Origin: Pseudomonadaceae bacterium
GTDB lineage: Bacteria; Pseudomonadota; Gammaproteobacteria; Pseudomonadales; Pseudomonadaceae
Assembly: GCA_019747075.1 (NCBI GenBank)
Contig: JAIERF010000009.1
Location: 1-64,000 of the forward strand
DNA length: 64,000 nucleotides
Direction of reading: 5' to 3'
Shown here: piece after piece, positions 2,194 through 63,858 of the stretch
How positions within the stretch are numbered: position 1 is the stretch's first letter
How the letters are laid out: each line of letters opens with the position of its first letter
The notes under the pieces: generated by a model
Databases searched by the model: none
What the model saw: only the letters and a program-made list of their open reading frames with translations
Told to the model about the DNA's origin: nothing
Translations under genes and position numbers: made by a program

Positions 2194-3357
2194 ATGGGCG
2201 AATTCGATGCCATCCGACCTTACGCCGACGCCGAAGTCCCGGCGGTGCTGGAACGCCTGCTGGGCGACTCCGCATTTCTATCGATCCTCACCCACTTTCG
2301 CTTTCCGCGCCTGGCCAACTCCTTCGGCTGGCTGCTCAGACCTCTTATAGCCTATCGGCTGCGCCATGAGTTGCGCGGCATCCACTCGGTGGCGCAATTA
2401 CAGGACCGGGTCGAGCCCTATGTCGACCGCACCATCGAGCGCGCCACCGACGGCGTGACCTACAGCGGCGTGGAGCGCCTGCAGAAAGGCAGTGCCTACC
2501 TGCTGCTGGCCAACCACCGCGACATCGTCATGGACCCGGCATTCGTCAACTACGCGGTCTACCACGCGGGCATCCCGACACCACGCATCGCGATTGGCGA
2601 CAACCTGCTGCAAAAACCCTTTGTCAGCGACCTAATGCGCCTGAACAAAAGCTTTATCGTGCACCGCTCCCTGAGTGGCCGGCGGGAGAAGCTGGCGGCG
2701 TTCCAGTTGCTGTCGGCCTATATCAACCACTCGATTCGCCATGATTGCCAATCGATCTGGATCGCCCAGGCCGAGGGCCGTGCCAAGGACGGTAATGACC
2801 GTACCGATTCGGCGATCCTCAAGATGTTCCACATGAGCCGCAAAGACGAGCCGTTCGCCGAGGTGATCCGCAGCCTCAAGCTGACGCCGGTGTCGATCAG
2901 CTACGAATACGACCCCTGCGACCAGGCCAAGGCCCGCGAGCTGTATATCCGCGCCAGCAGCGGCAGCTACGAGAAGAGCCAGGGCGAAGACGACCTCAGC
3001 ATTGCCCAGGGCATCACCGGCTACAAAGGCCGCGTGCATATCAACTTTGCCGAGCACATCAGTCAGGACTTTGCCGACACCAAGCAATTGGCGGCGGAGA
3101 TGGACCGGCAGATCCTCGCTGGCTATCGCCTGTTCCCCGTGCATTACCTGGCCTACGCCATGTGGCAGGAACGCGATCAGCAGTTGCAGGTGCCGACCGC
3201 CGCCGAGCTGTTTGCCCCGGCCGAACTGGCCAAGGCCGAGGCCGAATGGCAGAAACGCCTGAACGCCTGCCCGCCCGAGCAGCAGCCTTACCTGGTGATG
3301 CAGTACGCCAACCCGGTGCGCAACCAGTACCGCATCAAGGCCGGCCTGGCGCTGTAA
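2194..3357 (+). CDS. PlsC-like 1-acyl-glycerol-3-phosphate acyltransferase family protein
   Basis: 387 residues. The acyltransferase signature is LLLANHRDIVMDPAFV at about residues 105-120; the His-to-Asp spacing is one residue longer than the classical HX4D box. A later EGRAKDGNDRT segment corresponds to the substrate-phosphate motif. I chose the ATG giving MGEFDAIRP because AAGAGA sits five bases upstream. Another in-frame ATG lies one codon earlier and a TTG 75 bases earlier. It likely acts at the inner face of the cytoplasmic membrane in phospholipid or acyl-chain metabolism. It is followed by a strong terminator. The exact substrate is not inferable. Confidence 0.85.
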   Translation: MGEFDAIRPYADAEVPAVLERLLGDSAFLSILTHFRFPRLANSFGWLLRPLIAYRLRHELRGIHSVAQLQDRVEPYVDRTIERATDGVTYSGVERLQKGSAYLLLANHRDIVMDPAFVNYAVYHAGIPTPRIAIGDNLLQKPFVSDLMRLNKSFIVHRSLSGRREKLAAFQLLSAYINHSIRHDCQSIWIAQAEGRAKDGNDRTDSAILKMFHMSRKDEPFAEVIRSLKLTPVSISYEYDPCDQAKARELYIRASSGSYEKSQGEDDLSIAQGITGYKGRVHINFAEHISQDFADTKQLAAEMDRQILAGYRLFPVHYLAYAMWQERDQQLQVPTAAELFAPAELAKAEAEWQKRLNACPPEQQPYLVMQYANPVRNQYRIKAGLAL

Positions 3358-58282: not shown

Positions 58283-58540
58283 GTCGACCGGTCAGGTCGC
58301 ACCACTATGGCGACTGCCGGGCACCGGCGCCAGCAGCCTTAGTGCCATGAATCAGGCATCATCAGCGTCAAGCACAGGCGCCCTCGCCCCCTGGCAATTT
58401 GCGCCTATGCGTAACTTCCTTATAAGATCGCGCCTCCCCTATTCGTCGCACTGAGCGGCCCACGCCGCTGGTTACCTAGGCTTTTCCCTGAAAAACCTGC
58501 TTCAAGGTCCAGCGTGTTGTTGTAACTAAGGTAGTTAATG
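58283..58540. other. argF upstream region
   Basis: Part of the 424-base gap between the molybdoenzyme gene and argF, after the MITE-like element. No gene is seen. It should hold the argF promoter and any ArgR sites; none is clear enough to name. AAGG lies before the argF start. Confidence 0.4.
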
Positions 58541-61312: not shown

Positions 61313-61523
61313 GAGCCTGCCTCCTCGCCATTGATGCCTGCAGTGTGGCCGCAGCGGTGCACGGCCGCCCGTTACAGCGGAAGCTTTTTCCACAATCACA
61401 GTTCGTCAACTGCACTGCCCTGGGTCCACCCTGCACACACGGGCGCCACGGCAGTGCAGCCCGCGTCATAAAAACCACGCAAAACTGTAACAATTTCATT
61501 GAAAATCAACACACTAGGAAAAA

Positions 61524-61540
61524 TGGCACGCTCCCTGCTA
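61524..61540 (+). promoter_or_regulatory. Sigma-54 promoter
   Basis: TGGCACGCTCCCTGCT: GG at 61525-61526 and GC at 61537-61538 with exactly ten bases between, matching TGGCACR-N4-TTGCW at all but one core base. Transcription should begin near 61550, so an enhancer-binding protein such as NtrC is needed. Confidence 0.85.
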
Positions 61541-61554
61541 AGACCCATCCCGGT

Positions 61555-61592
61555 CAGCACAAAGGCGTGTCTGCCAACCCGACAACGACGTC
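61555..61592 (+). promoter_or_regulatory. Candidate ANTAR-target hairpins (P1 and P2)
   Basis: P1 (61555-61573): CAGCAC, hexaloop AAAGGC, GTGTCTG with a bulged C. P2 (61581-61592): GAC, hexaloop AACGAC, GTC. Both hexaloops have A at position 1 and G at position 4, the pattern recognised by ANTAR RNA-binding regulators. P2 shares bases 61588-61592 with the terminator, so the two are exclusive. P2 is short (three pairs plus possible extension). Confidence 0.65.
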
Positions 61593-61640
61593 ACGAAGCC
61601 TCGCATCTAACGGATGCAGCGGCTCGTGACGTTTTTTTTT
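61588..61640 (+). terminator. Leader terminator (attenuator) before the porin
   Basis: ACGTCACGAAGCC pairs with GGCTCGTGACGT (one bulged A). An inner GCATC/GATGC hairpin caps it, and nine T residues follow. It lies between the sigma-54 promoter and the ribosome-binding site, 25 bases before the start codon. Confidence 0.9.
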
Positions 61641-61665
61641 GCGTTTTGGCACAAGGAATACCGAC

Positions 61666-62949
61666 ATGCGTATCCACACTCTTTCTGTTCTTTCTCTGGC
61701 CGTTTGCGGCGCCTTTAGCAGCATTACCATGGCCGCCGAGGACCTCGCCAACCTGGTCGACTACGGCAAGGTCAGCGTCGATGCCCGCTACCGCTACGAG
61801 AACGTCGACCAAGACAACACCCTCAACAATGCCAACGCCCAGACCCTGCGCACCCGTATCGGCGTGCAGAGCGGCAAGTGGTATGGCCTTTCCGGCCTGG
61901 TTGAGGTCGACAATGTCAGTCGTATCGGTGATGCCTCTTACAACAACACCCGCGACGGTCAGAAGGACTTCTCCGTGGTCGCCGACCCGGATGGCACCGA
62001 GTTCAACCAGGCCCTGCTGCGCTATGACTACAAATACGGCAACGCCGTGGCCGGCCGTCAGCGCATCAACCTCGACAACCAGCGCTTCGTCGGTGGCGTG
62101 GCCTGGCGCCAAAATGAACAGACCTATGACGGTGTACTCGGCCAGATCAAGCCGATCACCGGCATGACCCTGACCTACAGCTACCTCGACAACATCAACA
62201 CCATCTTCGGTCCAGACAACGGCCGCTACGACAATAAGACCAACCCGGCCAACATCGAAGGCCACAGCCACCTGTTCAATGCCCAGTACATTCTCCTGCG
62301 TGATCGCCGTGGCGCACCGCAACTGACCCTGACCGGCTACAGCTACCAACTCGGCCTGGACAACATCGCAGTAACCGCTGCCGCCCCGGTGGGCAGCCTT
62401 TCCAGCCGCACCAACGGCGTACGTGCCACTGGCGCCATCGGCGCCTTGAGCATCGTCGGTGAATACGCGCAACAGGAAGACTACGCCGATAACCCGCAGG
62501 AACTGGACAGCGACTACTACCTGGCCGAACTGGGCTACACCTGGCAGGGCATCGTGTTCAAGGGCGGCTACGAGGTACTCGGCGGTGACGACGGCGTCGG
62601 CAACCGCGCCTTCCAGACCCCGCTGGCGACCAAGCATGCTTTCCAGGGCTGGGCCGACGTGTTCCTTACCACCCCGGCCGATGGTATCGAGGATACCTAC
62701 GTCGGTGTCACCGCACCGCTATGGGGTGGCCAGTTGCAGGCCTGGTACCACGACTTCGACGCCGAGCAGAACAGCACCCGCTACGGCGACGAGATCGACC
62801 TTTCCTACGGCCACCCCATTCCAGCCGTTCCGGGCCTGACCGCGCTGGTGAAATACGCCAGCTACGATGCCGACACCGCAGTGCTGCGCGGCAACGTGGC
62901 CAACGTCGACACCGACAAGCTCTGGCTACAACTGCAGTACGTCTACTGA
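61666..62949 (+). CDS. Outer-membrane beta-barrel channel-like protein
   Basis: 427 residues. A signal peptide (LSLAVCGAFSSITMA) is followed by alternating beta-strand pattern throughout (ARYRYENVDQDNTL; RTRIGVQSGKWYGLSGLVEV; LTLTYSYLDNINTIF) and the C-terminus LQLQYVY ends in an aromatic, as expected for BAM substrates. It looks like alginate-export or OprD-like porins but no single family fits cleanly. Context predicts a nitrogen-compound channel. Confidence 0.8.
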   Translation: MRIHTLSVLSLAVCGAFSSITMAAEDLANLVDYGKVSVDARYRYENVDQDNTLNNANAQTLRTRIGVQSGKWYGLSGLVEVDNVSRIGDASYNNTRDGQKDFSVVADPDGTEFNQALLRYDYKYGNAVAGRQRINLDNQRFVGGVAWRQNEQTYDGVLGQIKPITGMTLTYSYLDNINTIFGPDNGRYDNKTNPANIEGHSHLFNAQYILLRDRRGAPQLTLTGYSYQLGLDNIAVTAAAPVGSLSSRTNGVRATGAIGALSIVGEYAQQEDYADNPQELDSDYYLAELGYTWQGIVFKGGYEVLGGDDGVGNRAFQTPLATKHAFQGWADVFLTTPADGIEDTYVGVTAPLWGGQLQAWYHDFDAEQNSTRYGDEIDLSYGHPIPAVPGLTALVKYASYDADTAVLRGNVANVDTDKLWLQLQYVY

Positions 62950-62991
62950 CCAAGCGTGCCCCGGCGCGCCCGCGCCCAGGGGCACCACATC

Positions 62992-63021
62992 CGCGCCGCC
63001 GGTAGCCCTGCCGGCGGCGCG
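62992..63021 (+). other. Strong intercistronic hairpin
   Basis: 11-base arms CGCGCCGCCGG/CCGGCGGCGCG with an eight-base loop and no T-run. It may stabilise or partly block the transcript between the porin and sensor genes. Confidence 0.6.
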
Positions 63022-63072
63022 CACTCAGCCGGGATGCCTAACCGTCCCGCCGCTTGCCCAAGGAGATGCCCC

Positions 63073-63858
63073 ATGCGTCTATCCCTGCGCCACCTGTTTC
63101 TCACTACCCTGCTCAGCCTAACCAGTCAGCCCAGTTGGGCTGTCATCAGTGATGCCGAAGCGATGAACCTGTCCGGCATGCAACGCATGCTCAGCCAGCG
63201 CCTGGCCAAGACTTATCTGATGATCGGCTCCGGCGTGCGCGCCGAGGTCGCCAATGAGCAATTCGATCAGAGCCTGGCCAAGTTCGAGAGCAACTACCAA
63301 GCCCTCAATGACTATGCCCCCAACGATGCCATTCGCCAGGAACTGGCGCACGCCGGCGACCTCTGGCACACCTACCGGCAATTGCTGCTCACCAGCCCCA
63401 GCCGCCAAACTGCACCGCAGGTGCTGCTGGTCAGCGACCAGTTACTGGCGCCGTGCGAGAAAGTCGTGCAATTGATTCAACAACACACCGGCAGCACCTC
63501 AGCGCTGCTGGTCAATCGCAGCGGCCGCCAGCGCATGCTCAGCCAGCGGATTGCCAAGCTCTACCTGGCACAGAGCTGGCACCTACCGGTCGCGGGGCTG
63601 GACCAGCAGTTCCAGCAGGCCGTCGAGGAGTTCGACAAGGCCCTGGGCGAACTGCAAAACGCCGAGCAGAACACCCCGGCCATCAAGCAGGCACTGCAGA
63701 AAGCCGAAGCACAATGGAGTTTCTCCCGCGCGGGCTTTCGCCTGTCCGGCGACGCGCGTTATGTGCCGACCCTGATCACCACCACCACCGAAACCCTGCT
63801 GCGGCAAATGCAAGACCTCACCAGCGCCTATGAAGGGGTGATGCTGGCCGGCTCTTAA
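63073..63858 (+). CDS. Periplasmic PilJ/NarX N-terminal-like sensor protein (tandem)
   Basis: 261 residues with a signal peptide ending QPSWA. Two copies of the PilJ-type helix are seen: MNLSGMQRMLSQRLAKTY at residues 34-43 and NRSGRQRMLSQRIAKLY at residues 150-159. In nitrate sensors of the NarX type this helix (the P-box) binds nitrate. No second TM or output domain exists, so it would be a free periplasmic sensor or binding protein. AAGGAG precedes the ATG. Confidence 0.8.
   Translation: MRLSLRHLFLTTLLSLTSQPSWAVISDAEAMNLSGMQRMLSQRLAKTYLMIGSGVRAEVANEQFDQSLAKFESNYQALNDYAPNDAIRQELAHAGDLWHTYRQLLLTSPSRQTAPQVLLVSDQLLAPCEKVVQLIQQHTGSTSALLVNRSGRQRMLSQRIAKLYLAQSWHLPVAGLDQQFQQAVEEFDKALGELQNAEQNTPAIKQALQKAEAQWSFSRAGFRLSGDARYVPTLITTTTETLLRQMQDLTSAYEGVMLAGS

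Follow-up and report, generated by a model that had tools for sequence, protein, structure and literature searches.

A porin gene, followed by one that encodes a secreted protein with two PilJ domains, lies near the end of a 64,000-nucleotide stretch of a Pseudomonadaceae contig (JAIERF010000009.1, positions 1 to 64,000; hereafter, the window). Comparison with related leaders, together with analogy to known systems, makes it quite probable that these genes stand behind an antitermination leader of the NasT (ANTAR) type and a sigma-54 promoter, as a nitrate-uptake module under combined nitrogen and nitrate (NasS/NasT) control. This kind of switch is already known; its output, a porin and a secreted PilJ protein, is new. 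What was computed here is the anatomy of the leader, its conservation, the leader type common to nasA, nrtA and nasST, the presence of an ANTAR gene in relatives, the genomic context, the predicted folds and the N-box arginines. The principal elements, in window positions, are:

61524-61539, plus strand: sigma-54 (-24/-12) promoter element, TGGCACGCTCCCTGCT, pattern TGGCACG-N4-CTGCT
61552-61575, plus strand: ANTAR hairpin P1, 8 base pairs (bp) with two one-base bulges, loop AAAGGC at 61561-61566
61581-61592, plus strand: ANTAR hairpin P2, 3 bp, loop AACGAC at 61584-61589
61588-61640, plus strand: intrinsic terminator, stem about 61588-61632, T9 at 61632-61640
61653-61657, plus strand: ribosome-binding site AAGGA, by sequence reading
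61666-62949, plus strand: porin gene, ATG at 61666
63073-63858, plus strand: tandem-PilJ protein gene

The -24 GG and -12 GC of the promoter element have the right spacing (61524-61539), and the P1-P2 stretch, folded alone, yields exactly these two hairpins as its minimum-energy structure. The 3' strand of P2 (61590-61592) doubles as part of the 5' arm of the terminator, so P2 and the terminator are mutually exclusive; in the minimum-energy fold of the full leader the terminator wins, taking up this strand. An earlier note on this DNA had described a sigma-54 element followed by two hexaloop hairpins, each with A as the first and G as the fourth loop base (A1/G4), the second sharing bases with a terminator ahead of the porin ribosome-binding site. 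Sequence and fold bear out this layout and its loops; the stems need correction, to only 3 bp for P2 and to a bulged P1.

Among 298 Pseudomonas genomes, the porin has 25 matches in 18 genomes. The leader is present at 17 of these matches (a tally that includes the copy at locus L041, described below) and is conserved in 17 of the 18 porin-bearing genomes; two matches are contig-edge fragments at which a leader is not assessable. Together with further loci, the search gave 20 distinct homologous leaders for alignment: A1 and G4 of the P1 loop are kept in all of them, as is A1 of the P2 loop, and G4 of the P2 loop is kept in 19. The earlier note had staked its reading on the loops persisting in homologous leaders, and they do.

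The same type of leader precedes nitrate genes. A covariance model, R1, trained on porin leaders only and run on 199 Pseudomonas genomes, gave 57 matches among those listed: 12 porin leaders and 45 others, the surroundings of which were all inspected. Of the latter, 29 lie just upstream of nasA, the gene for an MFS nitrate transporter; the remaining 16, inside or beside unrelated genes, were taken as chance. The nasA leaders share the order of elements (sigma-54 element, P1, P2, terminator), and a spacing of 24 nt between the -12 GC and the P1 loop is kept by 15 of 17 porin leaders and 16 of 24 nasA leaders. Direct reading added leaders before nrtA in genomes G014 and G286; the gene order nasS-nasT-nrtA occurs in the genus, and both nrtA and nasS have a leader in front. 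The leaders that precede nasS-nasT (L236:514-556, L237:4079-4124, L238:4305-4350 and L240:7159-7201, with a weaker one at L234:3941-3987) consist of a sigma-54 element (TGGCATATCGCTTGCT/A), two A/G hexaloops and a T tract; their sequence suggests antitermination of the nasST operon by NasT itself. A leader of the ANTAR type, strong and with a sigma-54 element, also stands before a long gene for a nitrite-reductase-like flavoprotein (L123:1880-1927, minus strand, genome G308).

How alike are these leaders? The P1 stems are wholly different among porin, nasA and nrtA leaders, and the loops stay A..G..; at levels 2-4 of P1, porin and nasA leaders have other bases with pairing retained. Across 27 non-porin leaders, 6 of 11 pairs are changed on both sides, a result that none of 500 shuffles equalled. 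The stem covariation proposed as a check in the earlier note is present in these sister leaders; the porin leaders among themselves hardly vary in their stems. A second covariance model, R2, from the training of which all porin leaders were excluded, served as a non-circular test; in the window it places 61555-61597 first of 54 matches (17.5 bits, E 0.0004; the next has 13.0 bits). Across 21 genomes, 16 of the 17 porin leaders are among the R2 matches listed (that of G090 is not among them), mostly at 16-24 bits; many other matches of 16-20 bits in this run were set aside as background.

The leader exceeds chance because of this comparative conservation, not because of its single elements. With at most one mismatch, the sigma-54 motif has 14 matches in the window against 19.6 expected, and alone is not above chance; the folding energy of P1-P2 is not unusual (z 0.10), that of the terminator is modestly unusual (z -2.19), and that of the whole leader is clearly unusual (z -3.79), with 0 of 200 shuffles as good. 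A simple terminator scan did not report the leader terminator, perhaps because its stem has bulges, and the three matches it did report are at chance level; an Rfam scan of the window gave no match at gathering thresholds. The values for the promoter motif and for P1-P2 are what one would expect of a plain sigma-54 promoter with an unregulated attenuator and coincidental hexaloops; that reading is already disfavoured by the loops kept in 20 leaders, by a porin-only model that finds nasA leaders and by the covariation of the sister leaders, and we give it next to no credence.

Each of the 17 other porin-bearing genomes searched has an ANTAR gene. So does the nearest relative (the genome of L009, with a PilJ protein 94% identical), where this gene adjoins nasS and precedes an nrtA gene that has a leader itself. 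Genome G003 has no ANTAR gene, no porin and no R1 match; 14 control genomes gave no ANTAR match and are therefore uninformative as controls. Could the hairpins be the target of another ANTAR regulator, AmiR- or EutV-like, with a signal other than nitrate? Three of the 17 genomes do hold a second ANTAR gene; the other 14 hold exactly one, and the leader agrees with those that precede nasA, nrtA and nasST, which makes a different regulator very improbable.

Several observations weigh against a NasT-controlled leader. First, the assembly that contains the window, 78% complete, yielded neither Pfam ANTAR (PF03861) nor nasA, NarK-like proteins being the only ones seen; the absence of the ANTAR gene is most simply explained by a missing contig. 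The earlier note had counted a genome without such a regulator against itself; none was found in this incomplete assembly, and one is present in the 17 other porin-bearing genomes and in the nearest relative. Second, six of the 25 porin matches have no such leader, and two leaders depart from the pattern: at L034 (leader near 2799-2853, minus strand) the P2 loop reads AACAAC, with G4 changed to A in a leader otherwise intact; and at L041:1790-1883 (minus strand) a decayed copy, with damaged -12 element and T tract, stands before a porin fragment, in which only an 88-residue porin stretch matches. Third, the P2 stem stops at 3 bp, as in the porin leaders generally, the next pair in the window being a C-A mismatch. 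Fourth, the score for the NtrC consensus in the window is not above shuffles and is suggestive in L021 and L029 only. Finally, over the window's own genome R2 gives the leader E 0.018, behind two other matches, and in the ANTAR-less G003 it finds a match of 20.6 bits; R2 alone is therefore insufficient for membership, being near background genome-wide.

The company that the porin keeps bears on what is being controlled. It is encoded in 95 of 244 genomes across the order. One search gave nine genomes outside the genus with an ANTAR gene; seven of these encode the porin as well, four of them at 0.5-5 kb from the ANTAR gene. Those four regions (L195-L198) are nasT-nrtABC clusters in which the porin gene is either a neighbour or the last gene. 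In three of them (L196, L197 and L198), nrtA is preceded by a sigma-54 element, A/G hexaloops on different stems (GAGC/GCTC) and a T tract; the leaders were found by a hairpin rule, under which L195, lacking a T tract, was not counted, and R2 found no complete leader in the four regions, only one partial P1 match in L198. Within Pseudomonas, the L045 porin is on the strand of nrtABC and downstream of these genes. Together with the conserved loops and the leader type of nasA, nrtABC and nasST, this nasST-nrtABC context supports the control by a NasT/NasR/EutV-type regulator that the earlier note had proposed. Other copies have a different setting: leaderless porin and PilJ pairs in L049, L050 and L199 sit in respiratory nitrate clusters (narK, narX, narL), and the window's own genome carries another pair, without a leader, on contig C333 (L047). 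From the leaderless copies in nar clusters on the one hand, and the leader-bearing or nrtABC-linked porins on the other, it seems that the pair exists in a respiratory and an assimilatory version.

The porin has 427 amino acids (aa) and a signal peptide. Its model, of moderate confidence (mean predicted local distance difference test, pLDDT, 67.7), is a predicted 18-strand barrel whose best fold matches are the OprD/Occ and AlgE barrels, at a template modelling (TM) score of about 0.6-0.7; it differs from these targets in sequence, at 10-17% identity. The Pfam Alginate_exp cut-off is not reached by the window porin (18.1 bits vs 25.2), and weak similarity to this family runs through 19 of 19 porin members (best E 3.6e-9). 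Such affinities would suit a porin for some other substrate, for example an oligosaccharide or an organic acid, that was merely co-opted into the nitrogen response; the linkage to nrtABC/nasT outside the genus, and of the paralogues to nar genes, argues for nitrate instead, and we consider another cargo unlikely.

The second gene encodes a 261-aa protein with a signal peptide and two PilJ domains; the Pfam PilJ profile scores 79.5 bits over two stretches, against a cut-off of 26.6. No lipobox, later membrane segment or output domain is seen in its sequence and model. The earlier note had called it a sensor, which goes beyond the evidence: the label is too strong because the protein has neither membrane anchor nor output domain. 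Its N-boxes read MNLSGMQRMLSQ (residues 31-42) and VNRSGRQRMLSQ (residues 147-158). The published pattern is [IVL]-[ND]-x-A-G-x-Q-R-M-L-[ST]-Q (PMC6381276), to which half 1 conforms at 10 of 12 positions (Met at 1, Ser at 4) and half 2 at 11 of 12 (Ser at 4). The N-box arginine, aligned with R61 of McpN, is invariant in both halves in 20 of 20 homologues.

The AlphaFold model of the tandem-PilJ protein (pLDDT 90) has NasR as its closest fold (VIA Z 20.4, 231 residues aligned, root-mean-square deviation 3.0) and McpN as the second best (VIA Z 16.4, half 1); Z values of 11-13 for helical bundles in the same list are uninformative. With the PilJ domain of McpN (PDB 6GCV; PMC6381276) the protein shares the N-box with its QRM arginine (profile E 2.3e-8); unlike McpN, it has two PilJ domains per chain, is secreted, has no membrane segment or signalling domain, and carries Ser where McpN has Ala at N-box position 4. 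With the NIT domain of NasR (PDB 4AKK) its model shares two four-helix bundles side by side on one chain; NasR, however, is cytoplasmic and has an ANTAR domain, whereas the window protein is exported and has none. In the sequence-profile search no NIT family is among the matches listed at E up to 1, the matching family being PilJ. In NasR, nitrate is held between two conserved arginines (PMC5424462); the model suggests an intrachain nitrate site in the tandem-PilJ protein, which may be a nitrate-binding accessory of uptake.

Might the pair sense nitrate rather than import it? The leader could be a NasT target and the porin-PilJ pair still serve nitrate sensing or chemotaxis, with the PilJ protein as a soluble co-receptor for a chemoreceptor or kinase. 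N-box PilJ domains are found mostly in signalling proteins (PMC6381276), and the paralogous pair of L050 lies near narX/narL and a PilJ-type receptor. Gene linkage speaks for uptake: a porin homologue sits in the nrtABC clusters of other families, with no N-box protein flagged in those four regions, and the L045 porin follows nrtABC. As the PilJ protein also has no anchor or output domain, we judge a sensing role to be improbable and retain the uptake reading.

How would a nitrate-uptake module behind such a leader operate? We infer NtrC as the activator, binding by NasT, nitrate as both signal and cargo, a shared transcript for the two genes and the role of the PilJ protein. When nitrogen is limiting, sigma-54 polymerase, with NtrC presumably as its activator, would start about 12 nt past the -12 element, so that P1 would be nearly the first RNA transcribed. 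In the absence of nitrate, NasS would hold NasT, and the terminator, using the 3' strand of P2, would halt transcription ahead of the porin; in its presence, free NasT would bind the A1/G4 loops of P1 and P2, and the terminator would be blocked. Release of NasT by nitrate and the holding of P1-P2 are proposed because of the analogy with EutV and NasT/NasR (PMC3369931, PMC6759348, PMC5424462). Production of the porin and the tandem-PilJ protein would then coincide with that of NasA/NrtABC; more nitrate would cross the outer membrane through the porin, and the PilJ protein, in which a single chain would reproduce the two-bundle nitrate site of NarX/McpN dimers and of NasR, would bind periplasmic nitrate. 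More tentatively, and short of an even chance, the tandem-PilJ protein could be a free periplasmic carrier or buffer of nitrate, a signalling fold reused for transport, with one intrachain site between its two N-boxes and a dedicated nitrate porin as its partner.

Three other features of the window were considered, two of which are:

61410-61459, plus strand: perfect 10-bp inverted repeat, CTGCACTGCC / GGCAGTGCAG, upstream of the promoter, at the site of a conserved TGCAC...GTGCA element
62957-63025, plus strand: GC-rich hairpins between the porin and PilJ genes, with no long T tract

The GTGC half-site of the upstream element is invariant in 18 of 18 aligned upstream regions, and TGCAC and GTGCA half-sites stand at similar places in relatives; the element is a possible activator site of the NtrC type. 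Several relatives have hairpins at the same place as those between the two genes, which may act as an attenuator lowering PilJ relative to porin expression or may stabilise the porin mRNA. The third feature, a second exact sigma-54-like motif at 58332-58347 on the minus strand, ahead of a gene for a molybdopterin oxidoreductase, was rejected as a second target: no ANTAR leader is seen there, and the motif, not found at this place in L043, L044 or L046, is probably a chance occurrence.

Leaders of NasS-NasT/NasR systems in Paracoccus, Bradyrhizobium and Klebsiella likewise have two short A1/G4 hexaloop hairpins, the second overlapping an intrinsic terminator, and stand before nitrate genes, behind nitrogen-controlled promoters. 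The window differs from them in its 3-bp P2 and in its output, an outer-membrane porin and a secreted PilJ protein instead of an inner-membrane transporter or reductase. Azotobacter is another host of NasS-NasT-type nitrate leaders. The EutV dual-hairpin RNA (Ramesh et al., 2012; PMC3369931) also has dual hairpins, the A1 and G4 hexaloop and the overlap of P2 with the terminator; unlike the window leader, it belongs to another regulator class, answers to ethanolamine and has unrelated gene content. In P. putida, a nasT deletion prevents growth on nitrate (PMC7261876), and in P. stutzeri, NtrC controls nasST and nasA (PMC8443478); no porin target is mentioned in the text seen of either paper. 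The word "porin" is absent from the main text of Ramesh et al. (PMC3369931) and from the paper on the B. diazoefficiens NasT regulon (PMC6759348), the supplementary tables of both lying outside this coverage. Judged from titles and the starts of abstracts, the literature searches made here turned up no NasT-controlled porin and no porin-PilJ pair as an ANTAR target, a survey that does not extend to Table S2 of Ramesh et al.

As far as sequence can tell, a pore at the cell surface and a secreted protein of nitrate-binding type appear to be under the same switch as inner nitrate uptake. NasT regulons are usually described as comprising transporters, reductases and denitrification genes, and nitrate, a small anion, is usually assumed to cross general porins freely. 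If a porin is under a two-input switch, with nitrogen starvation acting at the promoter and nitrate at the terminator, the outer membrane would seem to be a barrier to nitrate that the cell regulates. The control known from inner-membrane nitrate uptake would extend to the cell surface, and the window porin is a concrete candidate for a nitrate porin; R1 and R2 are reusable for mapping NasT regulons in Pseudomonas. If the tandem-PilJ protein is indeed a carrier, NasT would coordinate a whole route for nitrate, from the porin to the PilJ protein and on to NasA/NrtABC, in addition to its own nasST operon.

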